NCBI GenBank assembly: GCA_017514235.1 | Contig: JAFWKK010000018.1 | Span: 81,762-145,761, forward strand | DNA: 64,000 nt | Direction of reading: 5' to 3' | From: Kiritimatiellia bacterium | GTDB lineage: Bacteria; Verrucomicrobiota; Kiritimatiellia; RFP12; UBA1067 | In this document: in pieces, positions 1 through 8,886 of the stretch | Position numbering within the stretch: the first letter of the stretch is position 1 | How the letters are laid out: the number at the start of each line of letters is the position of its first letter | Made by a program: the position numbers and the translations under genes | Notes under the pieces: model-generated | The model's input: only the letters and a program-made list of their open reading frames with translations | Databases searched by the model: none | What the model was told of the DNA's origin: nothing

Positions 1-115
1 AGCGGGTGTCTATGCCGAACGTGCCATCCACTTCGATGTACGCATCCGCCGCATATGCAGCGCTGCCGGATGCAAGTGCAACAATCAACGCACAGATTGT
101 CGACAGGCTCTTCAT
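1..115 (-). CDS. Secreted protein, N-terminal fragment (runs off left edge)
   Basis: Only the first 38 codons lie in the window. They begin with a clear Sec signal peptide: MKSL, then a hydrophobic stretch, then a small-residue region ending GSAAYAA, with cleavage expected near residue 22-23. The start is supported by a strong Shine-Dalgarno (AGGAGG followed by AGGAGC) just upstream on the minus strand. A promoter with the ACTAACC-N4-GGTTAGT palindrome precedes it, in the same arrangement as before the 2711-4366 gene, so the two are probably co-regulated. The mature protein cannot be identified from this fragment. Confidence 0.7.
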   Translation of the reverse strand, partial: MKSLSTICALIVALASGSAAYAADAYIEVDGTFGIDTR

Positions 116-173: not shown

Positions 174-219
174 ATGATATCAAATTGCGGTTTAGCCGAC
201 GACTAACCAAACGGTTAGT
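174..219 (-). promoter_or_regulatory. Operator palindrome plus -10 for the left-edge secreted gene
   Basis: Seen: a perfect 7+7 palindrome ACTAACC-AAAC-GGTTAGT at 202-219 (plus-strand reading) and, on the minus strand, TTTGATATCAT whose TATCAT is at 174-179. The operator edge is 22 nt from TATCAT, exactly as at 4494-4539, and the sequence between and after is largely shared with that site. No good -35 exists at the 18-bp position. Inferred: an activator-dependent promoter with the operator centred near -43.5. Confidence 0.7.
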
Positions 220-241
220 CGGCACGCACCTGCTACGATCT

Positions 242-2677
242 TCATCTCGCCTCCAGTTCATGTTCGCCGGCGGAGAACACCCGCGTCGGCAAGCCTCGAA
301 ATCTGACGGTCGCCGAGGCACCCTCAGGTATGCGAAATCGCCACACACATCTGTCGCCACGCCATCTCCACTCGCTCTCGATGCGCCCGCACGGCGCGTC
401 ATATGCGGCCTTCACGAAGCCGATGCGCCCGTCTGGTATCGGTTCGAGGATGAAATGCCTCATTCCTGGCGAAGCCGGGTCTTCGCGTATCCCAGCCATA
501 GTCGACATCATCCACGAATAGACCGCGCCATACGCGTAGTGGTTGAAGCTGTTCATTCCCGGGTCCTGGAAGCCCCTCTTCGGATCATAGCAATCCCAGC
601 GTTCCCATACGGTCGTGGCGCCGTTGTCGACTGCGAAGAGCCAGCTAGGGCATTTCTCCTGCAGAAGCAGCGTATAGGCAACGTCTGACGCCCCGATCTC
701 CGTCAGCGTCTCCATCAGAATCATCGTGCCGAGGAACCCCGTCTGCAAACAGTCGCCGTGCCGACGGATGTCGGCGAGCAGATGCGCCTTGGTCCGCTCG
801 GCCGCCTCGCCCGACACGAGTCCGAGCTTTAGCAGGAAGAGATCCGTAGTCTGCCCGCGATAGCGCTCGTGCATCAGCCCGTCGCCTCCGATGTACTTCG
901 CCGCGAACTCCGCGCGCGCCTCGCCCTCAAGCTTGGCGTACCGGCGCGCCTCGTCGGCCTTTCCAATGTCGCGTGCCATCTCCTTCATCGCAAGCGCGTC
1001 CCAGACGAAGAAGAAGCCCCGGAAACATTCGCGGTAGAACTCCGGCGATCTGAGCGCCGGACCGTCACCGGCGAGCGAGTGCTCGAACGCCTGCCAATCG
1101 CCGTAGTGCTGCTTGTCGGGGCCGCGATGGGCCTCGATGAAGTCCATGTAGCGGGTCATCGCCTGCCAGTGCGCGTCAAGAAGCGCACGGTCGCCATAGC
1201 GCTTCCAGAGACGGTGCGGCACGAGGATGCCCGCGTCGCTCCATCCGGTGACCGCGCCCCTGCCGGAGAAACTCCACACGAGCGGCGCGAGACTCGGGAA
1301 AGCGCCGTCCGCGTCCTGGCTGTCGCGAAGGTCGCCAAGCCACTTGCCCAGCAGTCCCCGCACGTCCGCCGAATACTCCGCCGCCGAGACGAACGCAAGC
1401 GTGTCGGCTGTCCAGCCCAGTCGCTCGTCGCGCTGCGGACAATCGGTCGGAATCTCGAGATAGTTGGAGCGGAAGCCCCAACGCACGTTCTCGGCAAGGC
1501 GATTGACCTTCGCGTTGTCCGTAACTATGACCGGCGACTCGTCCGCCGCCGATATGCTGGTTACGGGGACGCTTTCAACCGAAAGGATCCGCACGGGCGC
1601 AGTAACGGTTATGCTCGCATAGCGGTAGCCGAAGAACGTGAACGTCGGCCTATACGACTGGCGCCCTTCGCGGAACACATACATGATCGATGCCGCCGCG
1701 CTGCGCAGGTTGGCGAGAAGGACGCTTCCGGCCGGCCCGTCGCACCGGCGCGTCTTCTCGCCATTCGCGTCATTGAGCGCCTCGCCCATGCGCACGGACA
1801 TTTCCGCACCGGCAGGTCCCTCCAGCTCGAAGCGCGGCACTGCGGCGGCGTTCTGCGCAAAGTCGATGACAAGGGTTTCTCCCGGTTCGAGCAGAACCGG
1901 CGACCACGGCTCGAAGCGCCGCCGCACCATCACCTTGCCATACGCTTCGTCCGTCGCATCCGACACGCCAGACCAAACGTATGCGGCGATGGGCTTCAGC
2001 ACGAGGTCTTCGCGCAGGCAGACCGGCGGCCCCTGCCGCGAACGCACCTCGCCCTTGAAATCGTCGCAGCGAACGGACGCCGCGAAGCCTGCCGCCGTCC
2101 GACGCGCGTCGACTCGCTCACCCTCGAATATCCCGGCGTCGACTATCGGCCCAGTGTACGCGGAGAGCCAGCTCGGATCGCTGTAAAACTCGTCGGCGCC
2201 GCCATCCTCGTATGTCAGGCGCAACGTTGCACGAAGAGCGGCATTCTTTGGCAATGGGGCGCCGACCTTTGGATATGCGCGGCGTGTCATCCTGCAACGC
2301 CACCAGCTTGGCGCGACCGTCGCCTCGAACACGTTATCGCCGCGCTTCACCTCCGACGTGACATCGTAGGAGACTTCAAAGCGCGTCTTCTCCGGCTGTG
2401 AGAAGCCGGGATCAAGGAAGCGCGACACGACCGTGCCGTTGACACGCGCCTCGAATACGCCCAGCGCCGCAACGCGCCACTCGGCACGCGCCACTTCCCT
2501 ATCCACGTGCACAACGCGGCGGAACACGGCCACGTTGGCGTTAGTCGTCGCCTGCGCCGCCGGACGAATCCACTGCGGCGCGTCGTTCGGTGCTAAGGCC
2601 AATGTCTCCGCAAACGTCGCAACTGCCGCGAATGTCGCGATAGCAGACAACAGTATCTTGTATGTTTTCATGTTCAT
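242..2677 (-). CDS. Secreted alpha-L-rhamnosidase-like protein (GH78)
   Basis: 811 aa with an N-terminal signal peptide (MNMKTYKILL..., cleavage near residue 23-24). Residues about 50-380 are beta-rich, fitting the rhamnosidase N-terminal and concanavalin-like domains. The (alpha/alpha)6 catalytic domain follows and carries the family signature DCPQRDERLGWTAD around residues 407-420, where the ERLGW glutamate and nearby aspartates are the expected acid-side residues. A later WERWDCYDP...FNHYAYGAV block (about 695-715) is also typical and would hold the base glutamate. The expected reaction is hydrolysis of terminal alpha-L-rhamnose from glycans outside the cytoplasm. It lies 33 nt downstream of the 2711-4366 gene, so the two are probably one operon under the palindrome promoter at 4494-4539. 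Substrate specificity cannot be read from sequence. Confidence 0.88.
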   Translation of the reverse strand: MNMKTYKILLSAIATFAAVATFAETLALAPNDAPQWIRPAAQATTNANVAVFRRVVHVDREVARAEWRVAALGVFEARVNGTVVSRFLDPGFSQPEKTRFEVSYDVTSEVKRGDNVFEATVAPSWWRCRMTRRAYPKVGAPLPKNAALRATLRLTYEDGGADEFYSDPSWLSAYTGPIVDAGIFEGERVDARRTAAGFAASVRCDDFKGEVRSRQGPPVCLREDLVLKPIAAYVWSGVSDATDEAYGKVMVRRRFEPWSPVLLEPGETLVIDFAQNAAAVPRFELEGPAGAEMSVRMGEALNDANGEKTRRCDGPAGSVLLANLRSAAASIMYVFREGRQSYRPTFTFFGYRYASITVTAPVRILSVESVPVTSISAADESPVIVTDNAKVNRLAENVRWGFRSNYLEIPTDCPQRDERLGWTADTLAFVSAAEYSADVRGLLGKWLGDLRDSQDADGAFPSLAPLVWSFSGRGAVTGWSDAGILVPHRLWKRYGDRALLDAHWQAMTRYMDFIEAHRGPDKQHYGDWQAFEHSLAGDGPALRSPEFYRECFRGFFFVWDALAMKEMARDIGKADEARRYAKLEGEARAEFAAKYIGGDGLMHERYRGQTTDLFLLKLGLVSGEAAERTKAHLLADIRRHGDCLQTGFLGTMILMETLTEIGASDVAYTLLLQEKCPSWLFAVDNGATTVWERWDCYDPKRGFQDPGMNSFNHYAYGAVYSWMMSTMAGIREDPASPGMRHFILEPIPDGRIGFVKAAYDAPCGRIESEWRWRGDRCVWRFRIPEGASATVRFRGLPTRVFSAGEHELEAR

Positions 2678-2710
2678 CCGTTCGTTGCGGGCGGGTTCAC
2701 GGGCGCGTTA

Positions 2711-4366
2711 TCATCTAAGCGGGAAGACGCCAATGGAATCGTACCAGGCCTTTTCGCCCGGCGCAAGACCCACGCCGAGAGTAAACTGCAGCTCGACGGC
2801 GTCCGTAGGCACACGCACCACCAGTTCGCCCTGCCGCCAACGGCCTTCCTCCTTGCCGAACGGCATGTAGAGCGGGACCATCTTCAGGTATTGGCCGGAA
2901 GCGTTCTTCCAGACGGCCGAGGCGGACGTCACACCGCCGCTTGCCGAACATTTCAGCAGGTACAGCTCGCCCGGCTTGACGCCTTTCTGCCGATAGACGA
3001 AGCATCCGCTCGGCACGCCTTCCGAGCAGAGCGATGTGCTGTCGCCTTCGCCGAACGTCGTGTCGCATCCGAAGCTGCCGCGATGGTTTTCCTTCTTGCC
3101 GGGCTGCCAGCTTTCAAACGGCTTGGGCACCGCGCCGGCCTTGCAGTCGGCGCAGTCGCCGTTCGCCACGAGGTTCGTCCAGACGCCCGAGGCCTCCATC
3201 TCGCTGCGGCGGTGCCGCGCGAACGCCGCCGGATCCGTGGCGGAGAAGATGACGTCGTAAAGACCGGGCAGCCTGTCCTCCCATCTTTCGGGAAGGGTTC
3301 CCTCAGCGATCCTGAAGTCCGGCTTCCATTTCACGAACTGCAGCTTCTCGCCATAGATCCACACAAATTCGTCGGCGGCGTCCAGCGCCTGTTCCAGGTT
3401 GCGTCTGAACGTCTCGGTGCGCGAACCGTCCTTCGGCGGGAAATACCAGCGGCTGTCCTCTTCGTTCACGTACATGTCGAGATAGAGGCCAAAACCCGCC
3501 TGAACCTGCCGCGCGTACTTCTCGCGGTTCTCCGGCGCCACAAGGCGCACGAGCGAATTGCGCACTTGGCACACCGAACGGTAGAAATCGTTGCGGTCGG
3601 CATCGTAACGGTACGCATACTCGTTGCCGTCCACAAGGCGCGCTCCCGGCGAAACGACGTCCAGCATGCCGTTCAAGAACGCGGGCCAAAGGGAATGTCT
3701 GCCGCGCACTGAGCTTTCCACGCTGCTGGCCGGGCACTTGTCGTTGCCCATGGTCAGCAGCCAGAACGACAGCACGACTGCATCTGGATATTCGGCAAAC
3801 ACCCCACGGAAGACTTCCGCGCCGCGCTTGCGCGCCATCTGGCACAGTTCGTCGTACGGCGGGTCGTTGGGTTCGCGGACGAACTGCCGAGCCTGCGAAT
3901 AGTCCTCGGTATCCATCTGGAGCCCCCGGCATCCGCCGTCGCGTGCGATGCAGGCGGCGACGCGCATGTTTTCACCCAGGCGCGCCCACGCCTCGTCGTC
4001 CGTCCAGGCAATGCGCTTTCGCGGCGATCGGAGCGTGACGAGGAAGTTGTAGCGGAACGCCCGGTGCTCCATCATTTTCCTGAGTTTCGGTACCATCGGC
4101 GCAAACATCTCGTAGGACCAGTCTTCCGTGTAGATGTTGCGCATACCCACGGCATTGCCCCTGCCGTCGCGTCCGCGCAGCCAGACGAACACGCCGTCAA
4201 GCCCAACGTCGTCGAACGCGTCCGCGTTCGCCAGAAAGTCGTCCACCGTCGCCGAGTTGAAGCCCCAGCCGCCTCCAATCACCTTCTTCTGATCCGCAGC
4301 ATCTGCACACAGCGCAATCGCACACGCCACACCGGCGACTATCAGCCTTTTAGTTGTCATCTTCAT
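2711..4366 (-). CDS. Secreted TIM-barrel-like protein with C-terminal beta domain, function unknown
   Basis: 551 aa with a signal peptide (MKMTTKRLIVAGVACAIALCADA). Residues about 30-390 look like a (beta/alpha)8 glycosidase-like fold: GLDGVFVWLRG, a MDTEDYS acidic motif near residue 150, and AVVLSFWLLTMGND. The last ~150 residues (from GVWTNLVANGDCADCKAG) resemble a carbohydrate-binding-type beta-sandwich. I do not recognise a named GH family and do not assign an activity. It is the first gene of an operon with the GH78 rhamnosidase, and its promoter carries the ACTAACC palindrome, which points to glycan processing under the nearby two-component system. ATG at 4366 or 4360 are both possible; neither has a strong Shine-Dalgarno. 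Confidence 0.75.
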   Translation of the reverse strand: MKMTTKRLIVAGVACAIALCADAADQKKVIGGGWGFNSATVDDFLANADAFDDVGLDGVFVWLRGRDGRGNAVGMRNIYTEDWSYEMFAPMVPKLRKMMEHRAFRYNFLVTLRSPRKRIAWTDDEAWARLGENMRVAACIARDGGCRGLQMDTEDYSQARQFVREPNDPPYDELCQMARKRGAEVFRGVFAEYPDAVVLSFWLLTMGNDKCPASSVESSVRGRHSLWPAFLNGMLDVVSPGARLVDGNEYAYRYDADRNDFYRSVCQVRNSLVRLVAPENREKYARQVQAGFGLYLDMYVNEEDSRWYFPPKDGSRTETFRRNLEQALDAADEFVWIYGEKLQFVKWKPDFRIAEGTLPERWEDRLPGLYDVIFSATDPAAFARHRRSEMEASGVWTNLVANGDCADCKAGAVPKPFESWQPGKKENHRGSFGCDTTFGEGDSTSLCSEGVPSGCFVYRQKGVKPGELYLLKCSASGGVTSASAVWKNASGQYLKMVPLYMPFGKEEGRWRQGELVVRVPTDAVELQFTLGVGLAPGEKAWYDSIGVFPLR

Positions 4367-4493
4367 TTTCGACGCGCTTCACCGAAAGATCAACGTGAAG
4401 CCTTCCGTCCGTGCATATACCGATTTGCCCCCTATGGATCTTTTAGCTACCTTATGCATTTTTCGTTCCTTTCAATGACCCTTGATGCCGCGC

Positions 4494-4539
4494 ATGATAC
4501 CAAATTGCCGTCTCGCCGCCTACTAACCACATGGTTAGT
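4494..4539 (-). promoter_or_regulatory. Operator palindrome plus -10 for the TIM-barrel/rhamnosidase operon
   Basis: Palindrome ACTAACC-ACAT-GGTTAGT at 4522-4539, then 22 nt, then TTTGGTATCAT on the minus strand (TATCAT at 4494-4499). Flanks match the 174-219 site closely: both share the GCAATTTG-R-TATCAT core and a GGCATCAAGG block at the predicted transcript start. The spacer ACAT differs from AAAC at the other two sites while the arms are identical, which supports the arms as the recognised element. Predicted leader about 120 nt. Confidence 0.75.
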
Positions 4540-4558
4540 CTCTCTGCTGGCGCAGGCG

Positions 4559-5887
4559 CTAAACGAACATCACCATGTAATGCGGAAGCGTTACCTTCTT
4601 GCCGAACCGGCCGACATTGCCGTTGATGAATTTGTACCCGACTTCTATCTCGGGGCTTTCGACAAGGCGGTTGAATGATTCCGAACAGCAGGATCCCGCT
4701 TTCACTTCGATGGGAACGATGGATGATCCGCGGGCGACCACGAAATCGATCTCACCCTGCCCTGGCTTCTTCTGGTAGTAGTACGGCTCGTATCCTCGTC
4801 TCACCAGAGCACCCATGATGGCGTTCTCGTATATGCCGCCCTTGGCTGGGCCTTTCAGCGTGTTCTCAATTATCGGACTGACAATCTCAAATCCAGACAT
4901 CGCGGCGAGGATTCCCGTATCTGCGACATAAAGTTTGAACATGTCGTTCTTTTTGTATGCGCGCAGAGGAATGTCCACGGACTCAAGATTGTGGCATTGC
5001 AGCGCAAGGGCGGATTCCCTCAGCCAGTCTATGGACGAACCGAACTTCCGTGACGAGCCGTTCTTTTCCACACTTGAGTACTTGAACTTTCTGTTCTCCC
5101 TAGCAAGCTGCGAAGGAATAGAAACGTAGCAGGCTCGGACTTTGGGCTTTTCGGTCGTGAGGGCATAACGCGATATGTCATCCAGATTGGACGCGAGAAT
5201 GTCCCTCTGCACTTCGAACACCGCACCAAAGTTCTTGGACTTTACATACGTCGCCACCACATCCGGCATTCCGCCAATGACGATATATTCGCGGAAGAGT
5301 CGAAGCATGTGCTCGTTGGTGGAATTCGGCAGCGTTGTCAGGCTGTCGAACGACTCTCTGTACACGGAAAGCGAGTCATCGGTGTATCCGACAGCCCAAA
5401 GGAACTCCTCGAAGTCGAGGGAGTGCATAACGACCTGTTGCTCATATCCTACCGGAATAGAGGTCTCTCGCCGTTCCTGATTGAGCCTTGCACCATCATC
5501 AAGGAAGGTGATGCCAAGGAGCGAGCCTGAGCCTACGACATGCGCTCGCCCGTCAATTGCCAGGGGCTTGAATGCCGAACGAGCCTTTGGGCAGACCTGG
5601 ATCTCATCAAGAAAAATAAAAGTTTCTCCAGGAACTACACGGAACGATGGCAGACGTGCACTGATACGCTTGAAGATGTCGTCGGCTTCCAGATTGCCGT
5701 CAAAGAATTCCCGGTACTCTGGGTTGATCAGGAAGTTCAGGTAGAGATAGGATGTGTAGTTTGTTTTTCCAAAATGGTCAATGATGAAGGTTTTTCCTAT
5801 CTGACGGGCACCTTTTACCAGAAGGCACTTTCTAGGAGTCGATGCCTTCCAGTTTGCGAGAACATCATAGAACTTGCGCTTGAGCAT
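4559..5887 (-). CDS. Orphan ATPase, AAA_14 domain plus DUF4143
   Basis: 442 aa. Walker A is GARQIGKT near residue 26-33, Walker B is TFIFLDEIQ near residue 90, and the C-terminal region has a PD-(D/E)XK-like core (YENAIMGAL...GEIDFVVARG...IPIEVKAG, about residues 345-405). This is the common ATP-binding protein family with a C-terminal DUF4143 nuclease-like fold found scattered in gut anaerobes; its role is not established. The gene is visibly more AT-rich than its neighbours and uses codons (TTT, AAA, ATA) that they avoid, suggesting acquisition by transfer. It has its own extended -10 (5918-5926) and an AGGG Shine-Dalgarno. It separates the kinase/regulator pair from the operon they may control. 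Confidence 0.85.
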   Translation of the reverse strand: MLKRKFYDVLANWKASTPRKCLLVKGARQIGKTFIIDHFGKTNYTSYLYLNFLINPEYREFFDGNLEADDIFKRISARLPSFRVVPGETFIFLDEIQVCPKARSAFKPLAIDGRAHVVGSGSLLGITFLDDGARLNQERRETSIPVGYEQQVVMHSLDFEEFLWAVGYTDDSLSVYRESFDSLTTLPNSTNEHMLRLFREYIVIGGMPDVVATYVKSKNFGAVFEVQRDILASNLDDISRYALTTEKPKVRACYVSIPSQLARENRKFKYSSVEKNGSSRKFGSSIDWLRESALALQCHNLESVDIPLRAYKKNDMFKLYVADTGILAAMSGFEIVSPIIENTLKGPAKGGIYENAIMGALVRRGYEPYYYQKKPGQGEIDFVVARGSSIVPIEVKAGSCCSESFNRLVESPEIEVGYKFINGNVGRFGKKVTLPHYMVMFV

Positions 5888-5917
5888 TCATTTTCCCTAT
5901 TTAAGACATATGAATGA

Positions 5918-5926
5918 ATTATATCA
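5918..5926 (-). promoter_or_regulatory. Extended -10 promoter of the ATPase gene
   Basis: Minus strand reads TTTGATATAAT, with TATAAT at 5918-5923 and the TG of the extended -10 at 5925-5926. It lies about 30 nt before the ATG at 5887, which has an AGGGAAAATGA ribosome site. No clear -35 was seen. Confidence 0.6.
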
Positions 5927-5949
5927 AATACTGGCAGGGCTTGCAATAT

Positions 5950-6030
5950 GCAGCTTTTTGACGGGTATGGCATAGTGATGATTGCAACTTTTTGACGGGC
6001 ATGACACTGCTTGAATTGCAACTTTTTAGC
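5950..6030. repeat. 2.5 copies of a 34-bp tandem repeat
   Basis: GCARCTTTTTGACGGG begins at 5950 and again at 5984, and its first part (GCAACTTTTTA) at 6018, giving an exact 34-bp period. The unit continues with YATGRCA. The array sits in the non-coding gap between the AT-rich ATPase gene and the histidine kinase, immediately before the kinase operator. The 234-bp gap otherwise holds only the two promoters. Function unknown; too few copies and no spacer variation for CRISPR. Confidence 0.7.
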
Positions 6031-6065
6031 TTTCCTTACGGCGACGGACAAGAAAATGTCCTGAA

Positions 6066-6112
6066 ACTAACCAAACGGTTAGTCTCCCTGCGGGCGCAGA
6101 ATATGATAAAAT
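6066..6112 (+). promoter_or_regulatory. Operator palindrome plus -10 for the histidine kinase gene
   Basis: Palindrome ACTAACC-AAAC-GGTTAGT at 6066-6083, identical in arms and spacer to the 202-219 site. Downstream on the plus strand are two candidate -10 hexamers: TATGAT at 6102-6107 (18 nt from the operator) and TAAAAT at 6107-6112 (23 nt). The second almost reproduces the 22-nt spacing of the other two sites. Either predicts a transcript starting only a few nucleotides before the TTG start codon at 6122. Likely autoregulation of the two-component system. Confidence 0.65.
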
Positions 6113-6121
6113 ACTTTCGCC

Positions 6122-8221
6122 TTGAAACCGCTCCTGACACTTCTCGCCTGTATGCTTCTGCCTGCCGCCAAAGCCCACGCGCCATTGCGCACGGCGGCAG
6201 AGATCAATGCGCTTTCGGATGACGAGTTTGCGTCTGGCATTCCCTTTGACATTGAAGGCACCGTTTCCTTTGTCGCCTCTTCGGCCTCCCCCGGATTCAA
6301 CCCCAATGTCACCATACAAGACGGGACAGGTGCCGTCTCCCTGTTTTCGGCACGTGGTCTTCCCGTTCCGTCAACGGGCGACGTCATCCGCGCGACCGGG
6401 ACGACATCGTTCGACACGTTCTCCCAGCCTCATGCCGACTACACCAATCTCGTCCGCATCGGTCACGCCGCCACACCCAAGCCTGAGGTTCTATCGCTGG
6501 GCGAACTCCTTCGCGGCGACTACAACTGTCGTCTCGTGAGAACGGAGGGGACGATTGCCGATGCGTTTCGGGACGAGATCGACCCCCGCTACAACTATCT
6601 GCTGATCAAACGCGGCGCAGAAATCCTGCCGGCCGCATTCCCCGATCCCAACTTAACCGAATCGACGCTTCAAGCTCTTGTCGGCGCCGAAGTCAACGTC
6701 AGCGGCCTCTGTCTTTTCGTATCCGGTTCGCGTGATTTCCTCGGTCCACGGCTGGAACTTACGGGGCTTGACGCCATTCGCGTGACGAAACCCGCACCCA
6801 GCGATCCGTTTGACGCCCCGACGCTCGCGGACATCCACCGCATCAATCCGGCGACCGTGGCGAACATGGGGCGCCGCACCGTCGCTGGTCGCGTCATCGC
6901 CGTGTGGAACGGCGACCGGTTCATCATCAAGACTGCCGACGGACGCTTCCTCCGCATCACTCTGGCGCGGCGGCATTCCCCGCCCGCATACGGCGAGACT
7001 GTTCGTGTCGTCGGCTTTCCGGAAACAGACCTCTTCCGCATCAACATCAGCGAGGCGATCTGGCGGCGGGAACAGTCCGTCCTGCCGCCCGAAGAGCCTC
7101 CGCAGCCTTGCACGGCATCGGCTCTGCTAATGGATGCCAGCGGACGGCAAAAGTTCCGTCCCCGCTACTTCGGCCATACTCTGAAACTCAAGGGCCAGCT
7201 CAGGGACACCCCGGAACCGAATCGCCTCAAGGCGCATGCCCTTCTCGACTGCGGCAACGTCATCATTCCCATAAACACCGACATGTGCCCCAACGTCTTC
7301 AAGGACGCCGCCGCAGGCTGCATCGTCGAACTGTCTGGCATATGCCTCATGGAGACCGAGAGCTGGCGCTCGGACGCCCCCTTCCCACGCGTGACCGGCG
7401 TGACACTCATCCTGCGCACCGTTGCCGACCTGAAGATCCTGTCGCGTCCGCCGTGGTGGACGCCGCTGCGCCTTTCCATCGTCATAGGCGCGCTGCTTGT
7501 GGTCATAAGCGGCATATTCATCTGGAACCGCATGCTGAACCGGCTCGTCGAACAGCGTAGCCGCGCCCTGCTGAAGGAACAGACCGCGCACGACGTTGCC
7601 GACCTGAAAGTGGAGGAGCGTACGCGCCTCGCCGTGGAGCTGCATGACACCCTTGCACAGAACCTGACAGGCATCGCGCTCCAGATCGACGCCGCGCAGA
7701 TGGCGGCGGAAGAGGACCCCAACTCAGCGATGCCCTATCTGGAGATGGCCAGCCGCAAGATGCAGAGTTGCCGCGACAACCTGCGAAACTGCCTCTGGGA
7801 TCTCAGAAGCCGCGCCTTCGAGGAAAAAGAACTGGCCGACGCCATCCGCAAGACCATCGCCCCGCACATCGGCGAGACCGACGTGCAGATCGAGATGCAC
7901 ATCCCCTGCCGAAAGCTCTCCGACAACACGATCCACGCCGTCCTGTGCATCATCCGCGAACTGACCATCAACGCCGTCCGGCACGGCAAGGCCGCGCACA
8001 TCGCCGTTTGCGGAACGCTGGACAGTTCTGGCCTCTCCTTCACGGTCGCCGACGACGGCATCGGCTTCGATCCGTCACGACGCCCGGGACTTTCGGAAGG
8101 TCACTTCGGGCTCCAAGGCGTCACCGAACGCGTCCTACGTCTCGGCGGTGCGTTTGAGATCACCAGTACTCCCGGTCACGGCGCAACTGCCACGCTCACC
8201 CGCCTCACCCCCGACACCTAA
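6122..8221 (+). CDS. Sensor histidine kinase with repeated OB-fold-like periplasmic domains (HisKA_3/HATPase_c)
   Basis: 699 aa, read from a TTG start; the first Met codon is 10 residues later. A signal peptide (about 1-20) is followed by roughly four OB-fold-like modules (near 35-110, 127-220, 235-320, 345-440), recognisable by recurring 'VEGTV...TIQDGTGAV...GDVIRATG'-type strands. A membrane helix lies at about 449-470. The cytoplasmic part has the HisKA_3 H-box ELHDTLAQNLTGI (near residue 505), the N-box ELTINAVRHG and the G-box VADDGIGFDP. This is the NarX/DegS class of kinase. The response regulator follows 41 nt downstream. A periplasmic OB-fold sensor suggests oligosaccharide or nucleic-acid-like ligand sensing, but the ligand is not known. 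The palindrome upstream suggests autoregulation. Confidence 0.88.
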   Translation: MKPLLTLLACMLLPAAKAHAPLRTAAEINALSDDEFASGIPFDIEGTVSFVASSASPGFNPNVTIQDGTGAVSLFSARGLPVPSTGDVIRATGTTSFDTFSQPHADYTNLVRIGHAATPKPEVLSLGELLRGDYNCRLVRTEGTIADAFRDEIDPRYNYLLIKRGAEILPAAFPDPNLTESTLQALVGAEVNVSGLCLFVSGSRDFLGPRLELTGLDAIRVTKPAPSDPFDAPTLADIHRINPATVANMGRRTVAGRVIAVWNGDRFIIKTADGRFLRITLARRHSPPAYGETVRVVGFPETDLFRINISEAIWRREQSVLPPEEPPQPCTASALLMDASGRQKFRPRYFGHTLKLKGQLRDTPEPNRLKAHALLDCGNVIIPINTDMCPNVFKDAAAGCIVELSGICLMETESWRSDAPFPRVTGVTLILRTVADLKILSRPPWWTPLRLSIVIGALLVVISGIFIWNRMLNRLVEQRSRALLKEQTAHDVADLKVEERTRLAVELHDTLAQNLTGIALQIDAAQMAAEEDPNSAMPYLEMASRKMQSCRDNLRNCLWDLRSRAFEEKELADAIRKTIAPHIGETDVQIEMHIPCRKLSDNTIHAVLCIIRELTINAVRHGKAAHIAVCGTLDSSGLSFTVADDGIGFDPSRRPGLSEGHFGLQGVTERVLRLGGAFEITSTPGHGATATLTRLTPDT

Positions 8222-8231
8222 CCCCAGCTAA

Positions 8232-8256
8232 CCACTAGCCACCAATCACTAGCCAC
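8232..8256 (+). repeat. Two 14-nt direct repeats in the kinase-regulator linker
   Basis: The 41-nt gap between the kinase stop and the regulator ATG consists largely of CACTAGCCACYAA repeated with a 14-nt period (8233 and 8247). It ends in CACTAACCC, an ACTAACC half-site 6 nt from the ATG at 8263. No Shine-Dalgarno-like purine stretch is present. The half-site matches one arm of the operator palindrome and may be a regulatory remnant or coincidence. Confidence 0.6.
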
Positions 8257-8262
8257 TAACCC

Positions 8263-8886
8263 ATGCCCTCCAAGCTAAAGATCCTGATCGTTGACGACCA
8301 CGCCATCGTGCGCGACGGACTTGCCGCCATCCTCAAGTTTCAGAAGGACATGACCGTAGTCGGAGAAGCGGACGACGGTCAAGCCGCCATCAAGAAGGCG
8401 CAGGAGCTTCAGCCCGACATCATCCTGATGGACCTGATGATGCCAAACATGAACGGTACGGATGCGACTTCCGCCATAAAGCGCATCCTGCCTAACGTTC
8501 AAATTCTCATCTTGACCTCTTACGGCACGTCTGCCGACCTGTCCCGCGCTTTCAGGAACGGCGCGACAGGCGCCATCACGAAATCGCTCCCGAAGGAAGA
8601 ATTGCTTTCCGCAATACGGAACGTCGCGTCCGGGACACGTGTCGTCTCGCCTGAAATCGAACAGACGCTCAAGGAAGAGGCGTCCACCCCATCGCTCACG
8701 CCGCAGCAGTTCAAGATACTCCATTCCCTCACGCGCGGTCTCTCCAACAACGACATCGCCCGCGAATTCGGGCTCTCAAAGGCCGGCGTAAAGTTCCATC
8801 TGCTCACCATCTTCCGCAAGCTCAACGTCGCCAACCGCACGGAAGCCGTCGGCCTCGCCTCGCGAAAGCACATGTTCCAGGAATGA
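8263..8886 (+). CDS. NarL/FixJ-family response regulator
   Basis: 207 aa. The receiver domain (about 5-122) has the acidic pair DD at 11-12, phospho-acceptor Asp57 in DIILMDLMMP, the LTS threonine/serine pair near 86-88 and the conserved lysine in TKSLPKEE near 105. The C-terminal LuxR-type HTH (about 142-200) reads LTPQQFKILHSLTRGLSNNDIAREFGLSK and then VKFHLLTIFRKLNV, with the recognition helix intact. It is encoded right after its presumed kinase. NarL-family regulators bind short inverted heptamers as dimers, so it is the prime candidate for the ACTAACC-N4-GGTTAGT sites in front of the kinase and the rhamnosidase operon; this link is inference. Confidence 0.92.
   Translation: MPSKLKILIVDDHAIVRDGLAAILKFQKDMTVVGEADDGQAAIKKAQELQPDIILMDLMMPNMNGTDATSAIKRILPNVQILILTSYGTSADLSRAFRNGATGAITKSLPKEELLSAIRNVASGTRVVSPEIEQTLKEEASTPSLTPQQFKILHSLTRGLSNNDIAREFGLSKAGVKFHLLTIFRKLNVANRTEAVGLASRKHMFQE

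Follow-up and report, generated by a model that had tools for sequence, protein, structure and literature searches.

Locus-private palindromic operators proposed for a family of glycan-linked two-component systems in Kiritimatiellae

We analysed a stretch of 64,000 nucleotides (nt) from a Kiritimatiellia bacterium (GenBank assembly GCA_017514235.1, contig JAFWKK010000018.1, positions 81,762 to 145,761 of the forward strand), which is called the window below. Its left part contained three copies of the palindrome ACTAACC-N4-GGTTAGT. These putative operators headed six genes, namely two without an assigned family, a TIM-barrel protein and a rhamnosidase of glycoside hydrolase (GH) family 78 type, and a histidine kinase with an oligonucleotide/oligosaccharide-binding (OB) fold-like sensor followed by a NarL-type regulator. 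The corresponding features were as follows (d is the distance in nt of the -10 element behind the operator).

1-115, minus strand: start of a 713-amino-acid (aa) protein that continued in L004:17735-19876, with a paralogue of the TIM-barrel protein following it (L004:16050-17720)
174-182, minus strand: extended -10 element TGATATCAT of operon 1, assigned by sequence pattern
202-219, minus strand: operator 1, upstream of the left-edge gene, -10 at d=19
242-2677, minus strand: alpha-L-rhamnosidase (GH78-type) with PF17389 at 3.4e-96 and three further rhamnosidase domains
2711-4366, minus strand: TIM-barrel protein with a C-terminal jelly roll resembling a carbohydrate-binding module (CBM), AlphaFold pLDDT 82.9
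4494-4502, minus strand: extended -10 element TGGTATCAT of operon 2, assigned by sequence pattern
4522-4539, minus strand: operator 2, upstream of the TIM-barrel/GH78 operon, -10 at d=19
6066-6083, plus strand: operator 3, upstream of the kinase-regulator operon, -10 at d=20
6104-6112, plus strand: extended -10 element TGATAAAAT of the kinase, with TTG in frame 9 nt behind the hexamer
6122-8221, plus strand: histidine kinase with a beta-rich OB-fold-like sensor (about 35-441), a transmembrane helix and HisKA_3/HATPase_c domains (DesK/VraS-like)
8263-8886, plus strand: NarL/LuxR-type response regulator (PF00072, PF00196), the proposed operator binder

A sequence-only reading of the window had previously described three identical palindromes in promoter regions, and the description was confirmed. 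All 14 arm bases were the same at the three sites, and the extended -10 elements lay 19, 19 and 20 nt behind operators 1, 2 and 3. When up to 3 mismatches were allowed, no other match appeared in the window; shuffled sequences gave a mean of 0.55 matches at this threshold and reached three in 1 of 100 cases, while the real sites had no mismatch at all. The half-site ACTAACC that had been noted directly upstream of the regulator gene was present at 8255. A 14-nt direct repeat at 8230-8257, between the kinase and regulator genes, overlapped this half-site. The genome-wide motif search that the reading had suggested was also run. Across the 82 contigs of the genome (3.96 Mb in total), the palindrome occurred at up to 2 mismatches in exactly three places, all of them in this cluster. 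Since a control pattern read backwards gave 5 places at up to 2 mismatches but none that was exact, the exactness of the copies was the informative part of this result. A stretch of 61 nt was common to sites 1 and 2 (84%), and one of 34 nt to sites 2 and 3 (88%). Therefore, these were copies related by duplication rather than three independent palindromes. No exact copy of the palindrome was found in the 58 related genomes searched; we considered this lack as a refutation and dropped it, because paralogous kinases carried other palindromes in the same place.

Homologues of the outer kinase region were present in 24 of the 59 genomes searched, with 96 matches in total and five in the genome of the window. 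The best 60 of these 96 matches were fetched together with 80 of 257 loci from relatives. Among 146 matches above 200 bits there were 112 unique kinases, and 108 of these had 90 bp or more of upstream sequence; a candidate operator was present in 39, 36 of them in two distance windows. A homologous regulator gene lay directly downstream of 106 of the 112 unique kinases, and all 25 family members scanned, the window kinase included, contained HisKA_3 and HATPase_c. In a first set of 61 upstream regions, 22 had a palindrome with 6 or more of 7 pairs and a properly spaced -10 element, compared to a value of 1.77 (maximum 5) for dinucleotide shuffles; perfect palindromes numbered 12, and 0.1 in the shuffles. 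After removal of near-identical regulators (>90%) and of upstream regions shorter than 200 bp, 81 kinase upstreams remained. A strict test was passed by 28 of them; among 321 control upstreams, which belonged to other genes of these loci, 11 passed. When a divergent -10 was required as well, the counts became 20/81 and 0/321, and a relaxed palindrome with both -10 elements was found in 31/81 and 0/321, respectively. Either test was passed by 38 of the 81. Divergent pairs of -10 elements were also seen in 21 of the 76 upstreams left over, with palindromes that scored just 2-5 of 7; chance may account for some of them.

The spacing between palindrome and -10 element was bimodal, with 16 entries at 19-22 nt, 7 at 30-31 nt, one helical turn farther, and none at 23-29 nt; in these counts overlapping L065 entries were counted repeatedly, the 30-31 group included related loci (L073, L075, L077), and the shuffles preserved base composition only. 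On the divergent side, a -10 element at d=19-21 was found in 27 of 36 cases (shuffle mean 0.375, maximum 2). Moreover, 32 of 34 distinct kinase promoters had an in-frame start codon 0-13 nt behind the -10 hexamer; ATG was present in 30, at 0-18 nt. The divergent side, which served as the comparison in place of a shuffle control, had its longest ATG open reading frame (ORF) beginning 20-62 nt behind the -10 in 18 of 24 cases. Since the start codon played no part in choosing the -10 element, its position provided independent support for the promoters. The window kinase and its closest orthologue (L096, described below) both had TTG 9 nt behind the hexamer. Judged from this arrangement, the kinase mRNAs of the family may be leaderless (e.g., window 6104-6124, L096, L046, L071).

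These data also bear on the possibility that the palindromes were structural or mobile sequences, such as terminator hairpins, repetitive extragenic palindromes (REP) or element ends, that were spread by duplication and had no regulatory role. The window copies did indeed go back to duplication, and between two of them stood an ATPase gene that had apparently been inserted. However, the genome had only three copies, and the distance to the extended -10 was fixed across loci with different arms, making this explanation highly improbable in our view. The specific terminator or REP reading was rejected because the copies were too few and no T-run followed the stems.

The operator arms among the paralogues were diverse (ACTAACC, CCCCCAC, CCCCCTA, ACTACAC, CCTATCC, CCCCTCC, ATTATAC and others), and none of 28 within-genome operator pairs differed by one base or less. 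In the genome of the window, a search at up to one mismatch gave one place for CCCCCAC and one for CCCCCTA, each upstream of its own kinase, and 1 place for the control pattern. At the same threshold, the G030 operator occurred genome-wide in four places, all at one locus, and four of five G008 places were likewise at one locus. Extra copies inside their own loci numbered 12 versus 1.26 expected (22 operators). A one-mismatch ACTACAC operator was also observed at G008:C237:916-933 (L208), near a weak kinase homologue (C237:2011-3075); it is possible that this copy reflects cross-talk or a recently split pair.

It could be argued that the palindrome was the site of another regulator, for instance a repressor encoded elsewhere, and that the kinase-regulator pair was merely a co-regulated target. 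Binding by the adjacent regulator is a prediction, a palindrome at this position could also repress, and weak -35-like matches were present in some family promoters. On the other hand, the palindromes tested genome-wide were nearly confined to the locus of the regulator, their arms tracked its recognition helix (see below), and the regulator adjoined 106 of 112 kinases, although this count covered this regulator alone among DNA-binding proteins. The 4-nt spacer was also the optimum given for the NarL-family regulator ComA in the available part of PMC4797271. We consider control by a different regulator improbable and continue with the adjacent NarL-type protein as the putative binder.

Operator distance between systems correlated with the distance between the recognition helices of their regulators (r=0.485, p=0.0001); this comparison used 22 non-redundant systems of 33, one of which (L105) was probably a chance palindrome. 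The correlation remained after correction for receiver distance (r=0.316, p=0.0005) and for the rest of the helix-turn-helix (HTH) domain (r=0.40). A competing explanation is that the link reflected inheritance only, with related systems keeping related operators and no readable code. In its favour, the set was limited to these 22 systems, and receiver distance predicted operator distance as well (r=0.453; partial r=0.253 given the helix), so that ancestry accounted for part of the link; the helix effect that survived both corrections speaks against it. We regard inheritance alone as rather unlikely, and given the private switches of the sister pairs, the DNA code of the regulator may be readable from sequence.

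The origin of the three window copies was approached through the kinase orthologue in L096 (CAMPAA010000045.1, a metagenome-assembled genome of an uncultured Verrucomicrobia), which was 83% identical. This 16.9-kb sequence had one exact palindrome at 4808-4825, and elsewhere one match with 3 mismatches. The identical operator thus stood upstream of this one orthologous kinase, in line with the conservation that the sequence-only reading had asked for. It was located between the kinase-side -10 (d=20) and a divergent -10 (d=19). Its left flank matched window sites 1 and 2 (36/45 and 38/45) and not site 3 (10/35), while its right flank matched site 3 (26/32) and partially site 2 (17/32), but not site 1 (11/32). 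Because the flanks were split between sites 1/2 and site 3, the window copies were most simply derived from one bidirectional operator, and the ancestral operator was probably single and placed between divergent promoters. The divergent L096 gene encoded a protein with a sulfatase-modifying-factor domain instead of the TIM-barrel protein; therefore, the switch was retained while its neighbours changed. At the position of the window ATPase gene, L096 had no ORF of at least 180 aa.

In the window, this position was occupied by the following features.

4522-4555, plus strand: direct repeat, first copy, containing the operator and flanking the ATPase gene (88% to 6066-6099)
4559-5887, minus strand: AAA_14/DUF4143 ATPase gene that separates operators 2 and 3 and was apparently inserted there
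5949-6027, no strand assigned: three iteron-like repeats (TGCAGCTTTTT/TGCAACTTTTT) with a spacing of 34, upstream of the ATPase gene
6066-6099, plus strand: direct repeat, second copy (88% to 4522-4555)

There were 24 DUF4143 matches in the genome of the window and 39 in its relative G004. Exact direct repeats of 18-95 nt spanned the gene at 8 of the 24 own-genome loci, whereas the longest in 40 control ORFs was 13 nt. With mismatches allowed, 19 of 50 ATPase loci had repeats that scored 35 bits or more (20-172 nt), versus 10 of 2450 cross-pairs. This survey (L176-L199, L211-L238) used 50 of 52 loci, those of the relatives being the best-scoring among the matches listed, and took the longest ORF across the locus centre, which may be in the wrong frame in a few cases. 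Since this ORF choice was imperfect and a few repeats were far from the gene (e.g., L212, L183), the 19 of 50 should be read as an estimate. Inverted repeats in the 19 flanking repeats were not significantly enriched (combined p=0.08), and the idea that the insertions targeted palindromes was rejected. Private iteron-like direct repeats, often at a spacing of 23 or 32-35 bp, were also observed upstream of ATPase genes (L176-L238); an exact repeat of at least 10 nt occurred in 18 of 48 such upstreams versus 3 of 99 control upstreams.

An ATPase gene lay within 3.5 kb upstream of 10 of the 112 kinases, and 7 of these 10 pointed away from the kinase. Four of these seven had a palindrome of their locus inside the flanking repeat (L127, 33 nt; L084, 32 nt; L066, 26 nt; window, 34 nt at 88%). 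In L047 the distance between ATPase gene and kinase exceeded 2 kb; the 27-nt repeat flanking the ATPase gene contained GATACACTTTTGG, identical to the first 13 letters of the candidate operator of that kinase. The ATPase flanks of L078 and L083 had 13 nt in common only. DUF4143 ATPase genes resemble inserted elements that consist of a single gene, with target duplications of host sequence that are long and variable. From these repeats we infer that such an insertion duplicated the window operator and left each transcription unit with an operator of its own.

The rhamnosidase had four Bac_rhamnosid domains above the gathering score; its GH78 label we take from the Pfam names. The TIM-barrel protein had no Pfam or NCBIfam match and nothing meaningful among PDB sequences, and Foldseek matched its predicted structure to a mannanase, GH5-CBM6 and CBM16. 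The TIM-barrel family with the CBM-like domain (window 2711-4366, L004:16050-17720) was present in 7 of 40 genomes searched, that of the window included. The 713-aa left-edge protein had internal repeats and, judged by eye, a signal peptide, and had no match in NCBIfam or Pfam. The OB folds proposed earlier for the kinase sensor agreed with the predicted structure, and PF01336 was found in 5 of 25 family members. At other loci, operator-linked or neighbouring proteins belonged to GH31, pectate-lyase-like, feruloyl/acetyl-esterase, LamG, beta-helix and BNR families (20 proteins scanned, a chosen part of the operator-linked genes).

The following mechanism can be proposed. The outer, OB-fold-like part of the kinase would sense a signal, probably an oligosaccharide, and the phosphorylated NarL-type regulator would bind the 7-N4-7 palindrome as a dimer; as the geometry suggests, the centre would be near -44, and the bound regulator would activate extended -10 promoters that have no good -35. 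The targets of the regulator would be the operon that encodes the kinase and the regulator itself, and the two operons nearby, of which one includes the rhamnosidase. The operator would originally have been single between divergent promoters, as in the one orthologue; copies 2 and 3 would have arisen through the ATPase insertion and copy 1 through duplication of the operon-side promoter. The same design, with its own operator at each locus, was repeated around many paralogous kinases.

Several observations weigh against this scheme. Among the 81 kinase upstreams 43 fitted neither test, and 11 control upstreams passed the strict one. Matches to the -35 element of at least 4/6 occurred in 32% of family promoters versus 11% of shuffled spacers, and the promoters may therefore not depend wholly on an activator. 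The fifth G008 operator place was on another contig, several extra copies (L066 6137, L066 7809, L071 13281) had no -10 of the pattern used on the gene side, and 5 of the 20 proteins scanned had no Pfam match. The ancestral operator has one orthologue as its basis, and the arm-helix link is partly a matter of ancestry, as described above. Nevertheless, the earlier proposal of one sensing-degradation module under the adjacent regulator drew support from the genome-wide restriction, the -10 spacing, the orthologue operator, the recurrence in the family and the arm-helix correlation, and this module is one of many of its kind. On these sequence comparisons, we consider it quite probable that the cluster represents a self-contained glycan-sensing two-component system with private operators, three operons, operator multiplication and recurrence at paralogues. 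A broader model is put forward tentatively, its chances being close to even. Namely, herbivore-gut Kiritimatiellae would have many orthogonal OB-fold-kinase/NarL pairs with private bidirectional-promoter operators (a leaderless kinase mRNA one way, a glycan operon the other), arms predictable from the helix, and solo DUF4143 insertions that duplicated the operator (~20-170 bp) so that each unit kept one.

The results provide a sequence rule that ties together regulator, operator and target genes in little-cultured glycan degraders of the herbivore gut. About twenty distinct NarL-type helix-operator pairs could serve as material for fitting and testing a DNA-recognition code, and the mobility of DUF4143 ATPase genes becomes directly testable with 24 matches here and 39 in one relative.

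Term searches of the open-licence literature found no description of this operator family or of the DUF4143 insertions. The window system stayed below the cut-offs of the NCBIfam equivalogs (NarL, 146.8 bits versus 250; NarQ, 104.8 versus 553). In known systems, the LuxR box is centred at -42.5, NarL binds heptamers, and a palindrome near the -35 position is characteristic of class II activation. The operators described here had in common with these a palindrome near -35 and differed in their half-sites and in a second position one helical turn farther (d about 30).

The following comparisons refer to the available parts of the cited texts. In Pontiella agarivorans, also a member of Kiritimatiellota, kinase and regulator genes with the same Pfam domains (PF07730, PF02518, PF00072) were reported near GH/sulfatase clusters; that account concerned proximity alone, without an operator or promoter design (PMC10880615). 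Bacteroides hybrid two-component systems serve polysaccharide loci and likewise form an expanded regulator family there (PMC10766802, PMC11253607); the words NarL and LuxR did not appear in the available text of the former. Unlike these hybrids, the kinase and regulator studied here were separate proteins with a GerE/LuxR-type instead of an AraC-type output, and no SusC/D was present among 25 proteins scanned, the loci themselves not having been searched for it. ComP-ComA of Bacillus was similar in its NarL-type regulator, which binds inverted TTGCGG hexamers with an optimal spacer of 4 nt, and in activation, which is inferred here (PMC4797271). In contrast to ComP-ComA, the Kiritimatiellae systems combined an OB-fold-like sensor with locus-specific arms, an operator between divergent promoters, many paralogues per genome and glycan genes.

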